NCBI GenBank assembly: GCA_013214545.1
Contig: JABSQB010000003.1
Coordinates: forward strand, 1-37,235
Source: Henriciella sp.
GTDB lineage: Bacteria > Pseudomonadota > Alphaproteobacteria > Caulobacterales > Hyphomonadaceae
Direction of reading: 5' to 3'
Length of the DNA: 37,235 bases
A program made the position numbers and the translations under genes. Shown one piece after another: positions 20,511 to 24,536 of the stretch. Position 1 is the stretch's first letter, and the number at the start of each line of letters is the position of its first letter. The notes beneath the pieces were generated by a model, which saw nothing but the letters and a program-made list of their open reading frames with translations, made no database searches and was not told where the DNA came from.

Positions 20511-21179
20511 TTAAGCAAAAAGCGGCGACCGGGTTCCGACGAGTTCACGCTCTTTCTCGAGAAGATGCTCGAATGAGGGGCGCATGTGTATCCGCGCGAC
20601 ATAGTCCGACAGGTTTGGCCAGCGGGCAGAATCGATGATCTCGCCGGCGTGGAAATAGCTGATGAAAATTCCGCCCGCTGTCAGATCTGCGAGCGTACAA
20701 TCATCGCCGAGTAAGTAGGGCCGACCACTCACCAGCTGGGACTCCAGATAATCGAACACCTGCGGACGCATCTGCTTGGCCGCGGCGACGATTTCAGGAT
20801 CCGGGTCGGTCTGCTGAAAGTTCGGCTTGATGAACTGCTCGATGAACAGCGGGGCTTCAACTTTCGAGAACAAGGCCGTGGCGAGATAGTCGCAAAGCCA
20901 TAGCATCCAGGCTGCGTCCCAACCGGCTTTCGGAAACAAGGATGGCTCAGGCACTTCCGCTTCGAGCAGCGTACACGCGGCGAGCGAGTCTGGCAGGAAG
21001 CGGCCATTCACTTCCAGGACCGGGACCTTGCCGAGCGGGCTGATCTTCAGGAAGTCCGGGTCCGGATCGCCAAGCGGCACGATGGAGACTTGCTCATAGT
21101 CGAGCCCTTTCTCCTCGATTGCCACCACGAGCCGGCGCACCCAGGGCGAAAGCAGTGTACCGTGAACTTTGAGCTGCAT
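20511..21179 (-). CDS. Glutathione S-transferase, divergent from the HxlR regulator
   Basis: 222 residues. The thioredoxin-fold domain is about 1-75 (TLLSPWVRRLVVAIEEKGLDYE, then KVPVLEV with the cis-Pro and PDSLAACTLLE, where Ser contacts the glutathione glutamyl group). The all-helical domain is about 90-210 (YLLGDDCTLADLTAGG, the N-capping/hydrophobic staple motif). Start ATG 21179 has AAGGAGG upstream, so the longer open frame to 21248 is rejected. A predicted promoter (TTGCAA 21269-21274, 17 bp, TATTTG 21246-21251) lies entirely within the long inverted repeat before the hxlR-like gene, so repression by that regulator is likely. It is convergent with the ethylmalonyl-CoA mutase gene, 33 bp apart. 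Confidence 0.9.
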   Translation of the reverse strand: MQLKVHGTLLSPWVRRLVVAIEEKGLDYEQVSIVPLGDPDPDFLKISPLGKVPVLEVNGRFLPDSLAACTLLEAEVPEPSLFPKAGWDAAWMLWLCDYLATALFSKVEAPLFIEQFIKPNFQQTDPDPEIVAAAKQMRPQVFDYLESQLVSGRPYLLGDDCTLADLTAGGIFISYFHAGEIIDSARWPNLSDYVARIHMRPSFEHLLEKERELVGTRSPLFA

Positions 21180-21225
21180 GATCAGTCCCTCCTTAACAAG
21201 GATCACAATCTGCACCGTTTTGAAA

Positions 21226-21280
21226 AACTGGTTGCAATACGAAACCAAATAAGATGCATGGTTTTATATTGCAACCAATT
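21226..21280. promoter_or_regulatory. Long inverted-repeat operator with overlapping divergent promoters
   Basis: Two 22-bp arms (21226-21247 and 21259-21280) are inverted copies matching at 19 of 22 positions, with an 11-bp spacer. The perfect core is TGGTTGCAATA, with AAACCA on the inner side. A leftward promoter, TTGCAA (21269-21274), 17 bp, TATTTG (21246-21251), sits inside it. By symmetry a rightward TTGCAA (21232-21237) is spaced 17 bp from TGCATG, a weaker -10. It separates the GST gene and the HxlR-family gene and is presumably the HxlR binding site. The pairing is seen directly; protein binding is inferred. Confidence 0.8.
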
Positions 21281-21281
21281 T

Positions 21282-21779
21282 ATGCGAGCCATGAAGACAA
21301 AATCTTTCTCAGATATGCAATGCTCAATCGCGCGAACGCTGGATCATGTCGGGTCCTGGTGGTCGCTGCTGATCATCCGCGATGCGATGATGGGCGCGCG
21401 GCGGTTCAAGCACTTCCAAAGGAATCTCGGGATCGCCAAGAATACGCTGACCAGTCGCCTCAATGACCTGGTTGCTGGCGGCATCCTCGAGCGCGTTCCG
21501 GCCGCTGATGGCTATGCCCACGAGGAATATGTGCTGACCGAGCGTGGGCGCGATCTTGCCCCCGTCATCATCGCGCTGGGCCAATGGGGTGACAAATGGG
21601 TCGCCCACGAAAAGGGGCCATCCACCGTGGTTACGGTGAGAGAGTCCGGCGAGCCCCTGCCCCGTATCTGGCCGCGCCGCGCAGATGGCGAGCTATTGGC
21701 CCTCAACGAAGTCGGCATGCGCTGGGCGAATGGCGCAGGCCCAATCACCGAAACCCAAGAAAAGGAGGATCCCTCATGA
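21282..21779 (+). CDS. HxlR-family winged-helix transcriptional regulator
   Basis: About 165 residues. The HxlR (MarR-like winged helix) domain covers CSIARTLDHVGSWWSLLIIRDAMMGARRFKHFQ, the recognition region GIAKNTLTSRLNDLVAGGIL, and a wing with YVLTERGRDLAPVIIALGQWGDKW. The N-terminal Cys (in MQCS) is conserved in many members and can be redox-sensitive. A ~45-residue tail follows. ATG 21282 directly abuts the right arm of the inverted repeat. ATG 21291 is an alternative. Neither has a Shine-Dalgarno, so the mRNA may have a very short leader. The regulator likely represses itself and the divergent GST. Its stop overlaps the next gene (ATGA). Confidence 0.9.
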   Translation: MRAMKTKSFSDMQCSIARTLDHVGSWWSLLIIRDAMMGARRFKHFQRNLGIAKNTLTSRLNDLVAGGILERVPAADGYAHEEYVLTERGRDLAPVIIALGQWGDKWVAHEKGPSTVVTVRESGEPLPRIWPRRADGELLALNEVGMRWANGAGPITETQEKEDPS

Positions 21780-22093
21780 TATCCTGCAATTGCATTGTGC
21801 AGGCCGGTCAAATCTCACCCGAGACCGAAGCTGTCCTGCGCGCGAACCTGTCAGCCTTTGCCGAACGCGCCTTTGGCGAACCGGCTGAGATAAACTGGCG
21901 CGCGATTCCAGAGCGCAGCGGCTTTACCGCCGCCAAGCCAAGCACTTCTTCGATTATCTCCATGGCCGCGAACCGAGCTGTGCCACAGCCAGAACGCGCA
22001 GAACTGCTGAAAGAGATGTGCGAGCTTTGGGTCAATGAAACCCATCGCTCACTTGATGAAGTTGTCGGCGTCATTTCCGACCCTCAAACCTAA
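21776..22093 (+). CDS. Tautomerase-superfamily-like protein without the N-terminal proline
   Basis: 105 residues starting MISCNCIVQAG, with AAGGAGG directly upstream. The pattern of two beta-alpha-beta units, with INWRAIPERSGFTAAKPSTSSIISMAANRAVPQPERAELLKEMCELW and a final VVGVISDP, resembles the 4-oxalocrotonate tautomerase/MIF fold. The catalytic Pro-2 exposed after Met removal is absent (Ile follows Met). It might form a hetero-oligomer with the Pro-containing tautomerase encoded ten bases downstream, or be non-catalytic. Both ideas are inference. It overlaps the hxlR-like stop, so it should be co-expressed with the regulator. Confidence 0.6.
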   Translation: MISCNCIVQAGQISPETEAVLRANLSAFAERAFGEPAEINWRAIPERSGFTAAKPSTSSIISMAANRAVPQPERAELLKEMCELWVNETHRSLDEVVGVISDPQT

Positions 22094-22103
22094 GGAGCCG
22101 ACC

Positions 22104-22508
22104 ATGCCCCTGTATTTGTGCAATGCGGCCAAAGGCGCAATCTCTGACGAGGCCAAGCCGAAGATCGCTGCGGACATCACCCGCATTCATTGCGACGTCA
22201 CCGGCGCCCCGCCCCAATTCGTTCACGCCTTCTTCGTCGAGGAAGACGCCGCACCGCCGCTCGACGGCAAGTCTGCGGTCTTGTTCGGGAGTATTCGTGC
22301 CAACCGGACCGATGCCCAAAAGGCGCAGATCATTGCTGAAATGCGTGAGTCTATCTCCACCCATGCCGGAATTGATCTCGACGCGATCGGAATGATGACC
22401 ACCGATGTTCCGGCAAGCTGGGCTTTTGAAGGCGGTGAAGTCATGCCTGAGCCAGGTGAAGAAGCCGAATGGCTGGCGCGTCATCAACAGCCGACGGCAG
22501 CGGAATAG
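22104..22508 (+). CDS. Tautomerase (4-oxalocrotonate tautomerase/MSAD-like)
   Basis: 134 residues starting MPLYLCNAAKG, so removal of Met exposes the catalytic Pro used by this superfamily. The fold pattern continues with PPQFVHAFFVEED, FGSIRANRTDAQKAQIIAEM and GIDLDAIGMMTTDVPASWAFEGGEVMPEPG. The length and spacing fit the fused, MSAD/cis-CaaD-like subgroups (about 130-150 residues) rather than the 62-residue 4-OT. AAGGAG nine bases upstream supports the start. It lies in the HxlR-led operon, ten bases after the Pro-less paralogue and three before the DUF4345 gene. The substrate is unknown; keto-enol isomerisation or dehalogenation are family activities. Confidence 0.8.
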   Translation: MPLYLCNAAKGAISDEAKPKIAADITRIHCDVTGAPPQFVHAFFVEEDAAPPLDGKSAVLFGSIRANRTDAQKAQIIAEMRESISTHAGIDLDAIGMMTTDVPASWAFEGGEVMPEPGEEAEWLARHQQPTAAE

Positions 22509-22511
22509 GCG

Positions 22512-22898
22512 ATGGTCGCTCGCATTTTCCTGGGTTTCATCGTCCTGTCGATTGGCAGTATTGGCATCCTCTATCTGTACGATCCCAATCTGCTCCTCGC
22601 GCGCTATGATCTCGCTACGGGGAGCGCAGGCATGGATAATATGCTGCGCTCTACCTATAGCGGCCTGTTCCTGGCCTCAGCATTGGTCTTTCTGCTCGGT
22701 GTGTTCGTAGAAGCCCGCCGGCGTGATGCTTTGGCCTTCGTCGCCATTTTCATGACCGGCGCCGCGATTGGGCGGATTGCAAGCATCCTCGCTGTCGGAT
22801 CGCCGCCCGCGACGATCATGCCGCTGCTCTATTTCGAGATTGCCGCCACCGTGATCGCCGTGGTCTTATATCTCCGCACGCCAGCTACTCAGAGCTGA
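22512..22898 (+). CDS. DUF4345-family membrane protein
   Basis: 128 residues with four predicted membrane helices (about 2-22, 44-64, 72-92 and 100-121). The pattern fits DUF4345: a short helix, a loop with YDPNLLLARYDLATGSAGMDNMLRSTYSGLFLA, then GAAIGRIASILAVGSPP and a final helix. The function of the family is unknown. It is often found next to detoxification or redox enzymes, as here. Located three bases after the tautomerase gene in the HxlR-led operon. Confidence 0.75.
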   Translation: MVARIFLGFIVLSIGSIGILYLYDPNLLLARYDLATGSAGMDNMLRSTYSGLFLASALVFLLGVFVEARRRDALAFVAIFMTGAAIGRIASILAVGSPPATIMPLLYFEIAATVIAVVLYLRTPATQS

Positions 22899-22930: not shown

Positions 22931-23656
22931 ATGTCTGATACTGTCATCATCCTGGGCGCAGGTGCCTCAAAAGGCGTCGGCGGCGCGCTTGGACGCAAGT
23001 TCGCTGCACAAGGTCACCACGTGATAATGACCGGGCGCACCGCCTCGAAAGTCGAAGCGCTGGCGAGCGAAATTACAGAATCGGGTGGTTCCGCAGAAAG
23101 CCTCGCCGTCGACGTCACCTCCGAGTCAGATCTGGATACGCTGTTCGAGCAAGCTAAAGCGCGTGGTCCAGTGGCGGCTGTGCTCTACAATGCCGGGAAC
23201 AATGCCATCATCCCGTTCGAACAGCTGGAACCGGACACGGTTGAACAATTTTGGCGCGTCGGATGTTTCGGCGCTTTCTTGACGGCCAAGCGCGCGATCC
23301 CGCTGCTCGAGGCGCAAGGCAAAGGCAGTCTGTTCTTCACTGGCGCTTCGGGCTCGATGCGTGGCCGCCCGAACTTTGCGCATTTTGCCATGATGAAAGC
23401 CGGCCTGCGCATGCTGGCACAGTCTCTGGCCCGTGATTATGGTCCTAAAGGCATCCACGTCGCCCATTTCATCATCGATGGCGTAATCGACGGTGAGATG
23501 GTCCGCAGCCGGTTTGGCGACTATCTGGACGGGCTTGGCGAGGATGGCGGACTGTCCCCGGACGCAATTGCCGATGCTTATTGGCATGTGTACAGTCAGC
23601 ACCGCTCGGCCTGGACGCACGAAATGGACCTGCGCCCCTACCGCGAAACCTGGTAG
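22931..23656 (+). CDS. SDR-family oxidoreductase with Phe replacing the catalytic Tyr
   Basis: 241 residues with a Rossmann fold. The nucleotide-binding loop is GAGASKGVG (9-17), incomplete against the classical TGxxxGxG. NAG lies at 87-89, and Ser140 is in FTGAS. The active-site YxxxK reads FAMMK (F152 to K156), so the proton-donating Tyr is missing while Lys is kept. These features agree with the SDR subgroup called classical SDR c10 in conserved-domain databases, which is described as lacking the active-site Tyr. Either the chemistry differs or the protein is not a dehydrogenase. AAGAGAGGG upstream supports ATG 22931. It lies in the HxlR-led operon, 32 bp after DUF4345. Confidence 0.85.
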   Translation: MSDTVIILGAGASKGVGGALGRKFAAQGHHVIMTGRTASKVEALASEITESGGSAESLAVDVTSESDLDTLFEQAKARGPVAAVLYNAGNNAIIPFEQLEPDTVEQFWRVGCFGAFLTAKRAIPLLEAQGKGSLFFTGASGSMRGRPNFAHFAMMKAGLRMLAQSLARDYGPKGIHVAHFIIDGVIDGEMVRSRFGDYLDGLGEDGGLSPDAIADAYWHVYSQHRSAWTHEMDLRPYRETW

Positions 23657-23702: not shown

Positions 23703-24536
23703 ATGACCCGTCTCAAAGCAGCGTGCATTCAAATGCGCGCGACGACCGAGTTTCAACCCAATATAGCGGCCGCGAGCGAGCTTATCCGCGCGGCCGCTGA
23801 CCAGGGCGCGCAGTTCATCGCCACGCCCGAAATGACCAATCTCCTGGATATTCGACCGGGTCAGGCCCGGTCAAAGATCGCGGCCGAGGCCGATGATGCG
23901 TGTTTAGGCGCGCTATCAGGCCTTGCTGCTGAGCTGAACGTCACATTACTGATCGGCTCGCTCGCCATCGCCTTGCCGGATGATGAGCGGTTCGCCAATC
24001 GCTCTTATTTGATCAGCCCAAATGGCCAAATCCTCGCGCGCTATGACAAGATCCACATGTTCGATGTCGAGGTCGGAGATGGTCAATCCTATCGCGAATC
24101 GAAAGCCTATCGCGCCGGTCAAGACGCGGTACTGGCGAGCACACCGTTCGGCCTGGTGGGACTGACGATCTGCTATGATGTCCGTTTCCCGCACCTGTAT
24201 CGCACGCTTGCGCAAGCCGGCGCAGATCTGATCACGATCCCCGCAGCATTCACGCGCGTCACAGGCGAAGCGCATTGGCATGTCCTGATCCGTGCCCGGG
24301 CGATTGAAACCGGTTGTTTCGTCCTCGCGCCTGCGCAAGGCGGGCCGCACGAGGATGGCCGCGAGACTTATGGTCACTCGATGATCGTATCGCCCTGGGG
24401 GGAGGTTCTGGCCGAAGCAGATGGCGACGAACCGGGCATCGTTCTGGCGGACCTGGACCTTACCCAAACTACCAAGGCCCGAGCCCGCATCCCGGCTCTG
24501 ACGAACGAGCAACCAATCACAATCAAGACAGACTAG
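23703..24536 (+). CDS. Carbon-nitrogen hydrolase, Nit1/Nit2-like amidase
   Basis: 277 residues of the nitrilase superfamily, with the triad Glu43 (ATPEMTN), Lys116 (RYDKIHMFD) and Cys157 (LTICYDVRFP), and a downstream Glu in RARAIETGCFVLAPAQGG. The YDKIHMFDV and CYDVRFP contexts are those of the Nit branch, whose known members deamidate alpha-ketoglutaramate (Nit2) or deaminated glutathione (Nit1/NitA). A glutathione-repair role would suit a neighbourhood with a GST, but this is inference. It starts 46 bp after the SDR gene and may be the last gene of that unit. It ends ten bases before a tRNA gene on the opposite strand. Confidence 0.88.
   Translation: MTRLKAACIQMRATTEFQPNIAAASELIRAAADQGAQFIATPEMTNLLDIRPGQARSKIAAEADDACLGALSGLAAELNVTLLIGSLAIALPDDERFANRSYLISPNGQILARYDKIHMFDVEVGDGQSYRESKAYRAGQDAVLASTPFGLVGLTICYDVRFPHLYRTLAQAGADLITIPAAFTRVTGEAHWHVLIRARAIETGCFVLAPAQGGPHEDGRETYGHSMIVSPWGEVLAEADGDEPGIVLADLDLTQTTKARARIPALTNEQPITIKTD

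Follow-up and report, generated by a model that had tools for sequence, protein, structure and literature searches.

Paired 19-bp dyads between divergent glutathione S-transferase and hxlR genes of Henriciella sp.: a probable double operator of an HxlR/DUF24 regulator

Introduction

The operators of YodB and QsrR, two of the HxlR/DUF24 redox repressors that also include CatR, HypR and QorR, are shorter than the element considered here. YodB and CatR are described as sensing quinones via Cys6/Cys7 (PMC6798810). The HxlR protein of B. subtilis itself is presented as a formaldehyde-triggered activator that uses a Cys11-Lys13 pair (PMC7835342). Two-site control of a divergent region is described for SydR of Sinorhizobium meliloti, a redox-sensing MarR-type repressor with an N-terminal redox cysteine: two separate inverted-repeat sites lie in a divergent intergenic region of 144 bp, one per promoter, and each is able to repress (PMC11633110). 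Finally, the bidirectional promoters of Warman et al. are characterised as short pseudo-symmetrical elements that yield two divergent RNAs, one polymerase excluding the other, with a shared or overlapping -10 element and a distance between the starts that is mostly 18, 10 or 23 bp (PMC12825309).

The regulator studied here shares with the HxlR/DUF24 redox repressors the domain, the predicted fold and an N-terminal cysteine aligned with residue 14 of HypR, and detoxification genes adjoin. Unlike them, it is longer, has a C-terminal extension and a single cysteine, is nearest in sequence to PA1607/PA1374, and is accompanied by 19-bp dyads in a pair spaced by 30 bp. With B. subtilis HxlR, as described, it shares the domain and a cysteine at residue 11 but not Lys13. 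The two-site arrangement in a divergent region and the N-terminal cysteine resemble SydR; however, the SydR motif is TATCGCGATA and the protein is, as described, of the MarR type, whereas the present one has an HxlR domain. Further, the SydR sites are each described upstream of their own start, while here the predicted promoters overlap and parts of both fall within each dyad. In contrast to the promoters of Warman et al., as characterised, there are two separate predicted -10 hexamers (21246–21251 and 21255–21260), neither shared nor overlapping, and the inferred starts are about 28 bp apart.

A literature search at the level of listings, with subscription journals mostly outside its coverage, found no publication on this operator. 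The element is well conserved and, as a genetic switch, well supported but of an ordinary kind. We consider it very probable that the 49-bp element is a double operator by which HxlR controls its own gene as well, placed across divergent promoters that overlap, giving joint repression that is released by an electrophile at Cys11; binding, the dimer on each dyad, repression and the inducer are what we infer.

Results

The gene neighbourhood

The window, that is, the whole analysed stretch of 37,235 nucleotides (Henriciella sp., contig JABSQB010000003.1), contains the following genes and signals around the hxlR gene.

20511–21179, minus strand: glutathione S-transferase (GST) gene, with GST_N and GST_C domains
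21188–21194, minus strand: good Shine-Dalgarno-like AAGGAGG of the GST gene, from the sequence
21291–21779, plus strand: HxlR/DUF24 regulator gene, conserved start MKTKSF, invariant Cys11
21776–22093, plus strand: ORF105, predicted tautomerase-superfamily fold, overlapping the hxlR stop codon, in the linked cassette
22104–22508, plus strand: tautomerase-family gene, cassette member
22512–22898, plus strand: DUF4345 gene, cassette member
22931–23656, plus strand: short-chain dehydrogenase (SDR) gene, cassette member
23703–24536, plus strand: carbon-nitrogen hydrolase gene, next in line, following also in two orthologous loci (L036, L037)

Four ORF105 homologues match no Pfam family at E-values up to 10. 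A profile match to Ps01740 (5uif) is seen, and the structural model is confidently assigned to the tautomerase superfamily (TM 0.84). None of the eleven homologues has a proline after the start methionine, and Cys4 and Cys6 are invariant among the homologues; ORF105 seems to be a relative of the tautomerases that lacks the catalytic Pro1. Since the product of 22104–22508 begins with MP, so that Pro1 is present once the methionine is removed, the cassette pairs tautomerase-fold proteins with and without Pro1. The content of the locus (GST, tautomerases, SDR) suits detoxification of electrophiles or aromatic carbonyls. For the Hyphomonadaceae and some sphingomonads the predicted regulon is small and complete, consisting of the GST, two tautomerase-fold proteins, DUF4345 and the SDR.

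The inverted repeat consists of two dyads

The first-pass annotation had described a repeat with 22-bp arms matching at 19 of 22 positions around an 11-bp spacer at 21226–21280, and our recount agrees. A repeat search of the window returns nearly the same arms, 21225–21247 and 21259–21281 (23 nt, 87% complementary, 11 nt between them). The earlier characterisation of the repeat as far beyond chance stands as well: when the 111-bp intergenic region was shuffled 5000 times with dinucleotides preserved, a comparable repeat (22-bp arms, at least 19/22 matches, spacer 0–40) never occurred, and it did so in one of 100 shuffles of the whole window. The same scan finds a second such repeat in the real window, at 484–536, with 22-bp arms, 19/22 matches and a 9-bp spacer.

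Each arm is a dyad in itself, TGGTT-N9-AACCA, a point absent from the first-pass annotation. Hence the unit is not a single 22-bp repeat but a pair of 19-bp sites: two head-to-head pseudo-dyads with the consensus TGGTTGCAATATGAAACCA, 30 bp from centre to centre, forming an element of 49 bp in total.

21226–21280, no strand assigned: inverted repeat, 19/22, 11-bp spacer, by repeat search and our own count
21229–21247, plus strand: left operator dyad TGGTTGCAATACGAAACCA, by motif search and comparison with orthologues
21259–21277, minus strand: right operator dyad TGGTTGCAATATAAAACCA, its centre 30 bp from that of the left dyad

A de novo search of the regions before the HxlR genes for their best 19-bp palindromes is uninformative in this subfamily: the dyads are symmetric at only 6 or 7 of 9 positions, and mononucleotide shuffles often score equally well, for the hxlR of the window in 228 of 300 cases. 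Thus the evidence for the dyad is its conservation, not its symmetry.

The full 19-bp consensus with at most three mismatches finds only the two arms in the Henriciella genome. In the seven relatives searched it yields four places away from the locus, each with three mismatches, and no cassette genes were found near these four. Shorter patterns were rejected. The bare dyad TGGTT-N9-AACCA is unspecific, occurring at five places in the genome against six for the reversed control. The half site GGTTGCANNAT occurs at 29 places against four for the reversed pattern. As a regulon finder it was discarded, no scored place outside 21229/21259 reaching the lowest training score of 14.4; the best one elsewhere, in L001, scores 12.9 by the arm matrix. 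This scoring covered seven of the 29 places (L103–L109), two HxlR paralogues of the same genome and several other fetched loci.

Conservation at orthologous hxlR genes

The protein search yielded twelve close hxlR genes with at least 66% identity: the one in the window, L009 and L036–L045. The first-pass annotation had staked its proposal on conservation of the arms in orthologous regions, and the head-to-head pair at exactly 30 bp is kept upstream of hxlR in ten of the twelve, the window included, as scored by an arm matrix that excluded each locus's own arms. An operator dyad kept in the regulator's own promoter region, a mark of HxlR/DUF24 systems, is thus found at these ten. Of the remaining two, L043 (67%) has a single arm upstream of hxlR, and L045 (69%) has no arm there by arm-matrix scoring, with one arm upstream of its ORF105. 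In L089 and L090 (54%) the arm is also single; hence more distant relatives can do without the pair. The existence of single arms in these three loci agrees with the earlier idea that each arm is a unit of its own.

We aligned fourteen pairs, twelve at hxlR and two at GST/ORF105. The information content is 1.52 and 1.58 bits per column in the arms, 0.59 in the spacer, and 0.36 and 0.54 in the flanks. Outside this alignment are L043, L089 and L090 with their single arms, L045 with none at hxlR, and L016, L017, L031, L035, L046 and L072, where the spacing is different.

In two loci, from Parasphingorhabdus marina (L040) and from a Sphingorhabdus MAG (L041), the regulator gene is separated from the SDR-tautomerase-ORF105 block and faces it, and GST is divergent from ORF105. 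Both have a 30-bp pair in the GST/ORF105 gap (4516/4546 in L040, 4897/4927 in L041) and a further 30-bp pair upstream of hxlR, the latter in L040 being the weakest. L044 has the pair at hxlR in a locus with hxlR and DUF4345, and its fetched sequence contains no match to GST, ORF105 or tautomerase. These loci bear on a different explanation, namely that another transcription factor binds the element and its linkage to hxlR is that of a shared gene neighbourhood only. The five occurrences of the bare dyad in the genome would fit this. However, the pair stays with hxlR in L040 and L041, where hxlR is apart from GST/ORF105, and in L044, where these partners are not seen; it is absent from all 97 family genomes without an hxlR ortholog; and similar dyads precede the distant HxlR genes of L016, L017, L031, L035, L046 and L072. 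We regard another factor as very improbable and retain the HxlR operator. The sites, their conserved spacing and their linkage to the regulator and the cassette are established by comparison, and the genome scans agree with the comparison in pointing to the arms as the putative operator that accompanies this HxlR.

Genome scans with the composite pattern

With at most three mismatches, the composite pattern matches seven of the 105 genomes of the window's family. Eight genomes of the family have an hxlR that reaches 67% identity, and all of these but G016 are matched; the other 97 genomes have no match. Since most of these orthologs had gone into building the pattern, the 7/8 is not an independent result, and only the 0/97 is. 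Among 385 genomes of the class, scanned with at most two mismatches, only the Henriciella genome itself is found.

Of the 298 genomes of the L040 family, six matched: G488 itself, G634, G764, G574, G661 and G671. G634 and G764 are new and match without mismatches; in both, the pair lies between GST and hxlR, followed by ORF105, tautomerase and SDR, at 61–67% identity for both the GST and the HxlR protein. In G574, G661 and G671 the match has three mismatches and no cassette gene is near it; these look like chance matches. ORF105 is present in seven of the 298, in two of these only marginally. G600 and G661 have ORF105 without the pair: their hxlR (54–55%) and ORF105 diverge, and the gap between the genes has a single arm. 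Viral contigs contain no match to the composite pattern, and a plasmid search gave 720 records with HxlR relatives, all below 60% identity.

Predicted overlapping divergent promoters

Each arm contains a TTGCAA, and the hexamers TATTTG (leftward) and TGCATG (rightward) proposed in the first-pass annotation as -10 elements lie exactly 17 bp from them, as stated there.

21269–21274, minus strand: TTGCAA, candidate -35 for leftward GST transcription, part of the right dyad
21246–21251, minus strand: TATTTG, candidate -10 for leftward GST transcription, TA in 7/8 GST-facing sites
21232–21237, plus strand: TTGCAA, candidate -35 for rightward hxlR transcription, part of the left dyad
21255–21260, plus strand: TGCATG, candidate -10 for rightward hxlR transcription, at a conserved place but weak in the window

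The leftward hexamer starts with TA in seven of the eight aligned sites with GST facing left, against none of the six without it (L036, L039, L042, L044 and the hxlR sites of L040 and L041); the Fisher p of 0.0047 is naive because the sequences are related. Among offsets 10–26 in both directions, only that of the leftward -10, together with the same bases counted from the other side, gives p below 0.05. At the non-GST sites of L040, L042 and L044 another gene faces left. Hence the leftward promoter appears to be where it had been placed. The rightward one is a mixed case: the -10 place is kept, with TA in 11 of the 14 sites, but the window is an exception and its TGCATG is a poor match (2/6).

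The leftward -10 appears with a facing GST and is absent otherwise, and the operator stays in both situations. Such gain and loss of a -10 under a constant operator offers a natural series for the evolution of divergent promoters under one repressor. Tentatively, and at somewhat less than an even chance, the element may be a portable strand-symmetric bidirectional switch, in which HxlR dyads supply both -35 boxes at a fixed 30-bp phase, the neighbour is controlled by gain or loss of a TA-type -10 in the spacer, and related branches use other phases (28, 37 and 38 bp).

If transcription starts 7 bp past each hexamer, the starts would be near 21239 leftward and 21267 rightward. With starts at these positions, each dyad would take in one promoter's -35 and the opposite promoter's start region. 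The same positions are relevant to a reading in which the repeat works by folding, in RNA or DNA, as a hairpin, terminator or attenuator, which a long inverted repeat directly before a start codon could suggest. From such starts neither transcript would hold both arms; moreover, conservation tracks the dyads and the promoter bases. Because the arms kept alone in L043, L089 and L090 cannot pair, we set the hairpin aside as very improbable and continue with protein-binding dyads.

The regulator and the proposed mechanism

The right arm had been said to end one base before the hxlR start codon. This is true of the ATG at 21282, but the conserved start is the ATG at 21291 (MKTKSF): an in-frame ATG at the 21282 place is found in none of the eleven other close orthologs (L009, L036–L045). 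With the start most likely at 21291, the very short leader of the earlier description is amended to about 24 nt, counted from the predicted start of transcription.

The product, 162 aa long from this start, has the HxlR winged-helix domain PF01638 (73.5 bits, cut-off 20.8). The RrpB equivalog NF047364 scores 51.8 bits, below the curated NCBI cut-off of 175. The model is moderately confident (mean pLDDT 72), and its predicted winged-helix fold matches PA1607, HypR, HxlR and QsrR (2f2e, 4gcv, 4a5m, 7bze, 4hqe), the nearest solved structures being PA1607, PA1374 and then HypR. Cys11 is the only cysteine and is invariant in all 16 aligned rows, providing the conserved N-terminal cysteine expected in the redox branch; the aligned residue 14 of HypR is also a cysteine, which we take to be HypR's redox cysteine. 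PA1607 and PA1374 are of the same long-form, single-cysteine kind, and their structures are titled only 'putative transcription factor'; the dyads thus offer a testable operator code for regulators of this form.

We propose the following. One HxlR dimer would probably occupy each 19-bp dyad. On the left dyad it would cover the -35 of the rightward hxlR-operon promoter together with the region where leftward GST transcription begins; on the right dyad, in mirror image, the leftward GST -35 and the rightward start region. Because the promoters overlap across the dyads, occupied dyads would block RNA polymerase both ways. GST and hxlR-ORF105-tautomerase-DUF4345-SDR would then be repressed jointly, with autorepression. 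An electrophile, a quinone or another thiol-reactive carbonyl, would probably modify Cys11 and cause release from the DNA, and the detoxification genes would be induced.

Alternatively, HxlR could bind as an activator, or repress in one direction and activate in the other. The precedent is B. subtilis HxlR, described as a formaldehyde-triggered activator of its own operon via Cys11-Lys13 (PMC7835342), and the cysteine is residue 11 here too. However, residue 13 is isoleucine in 16 of 16 rows, and so the Cys11-Lys13 cross-link is not possible; also, the dyads are not upstream of the predicted core promoters but on top of them (-35 and start region), where a steric block is to be expected. Activation is therefore unlikely, and repression in both directions is preferred.

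The wider HxlR family

Similar dyads at other distances are seen beside more distant HxlR genes. In L016, L017, L031 and L035 (39–41% identity, divergent SDR gene) the same matrix finds head-to-head dyads 28 bp apart, and in L046 and L072 pairs at 38 and 37 bp, respectively. Most other relatives of 40–50% identity scored with the arm matrix have no pair. That related HxlR branches might use the same dyad at other spacings is suggestive only. The Sphingomonas sp. QA11 genome, to which L045 belongs, has L072 as a further HxlR gene (49% identity); L072 has the two dyads 37 bp apart, although the closer ortholog, L045, has lost its upstream site.

The de novo palindrome search also found near-perfect 19-bp palindromes in other HxlR branches (L015, L017, L022, L047, L072). 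In L015 and L022 a perfect or near-perfect 19-bp palindrome GACTTGCATTATGCAAGTC is situated about 30 bp before the hxlR start, and it is perhaps the operator of that branch.
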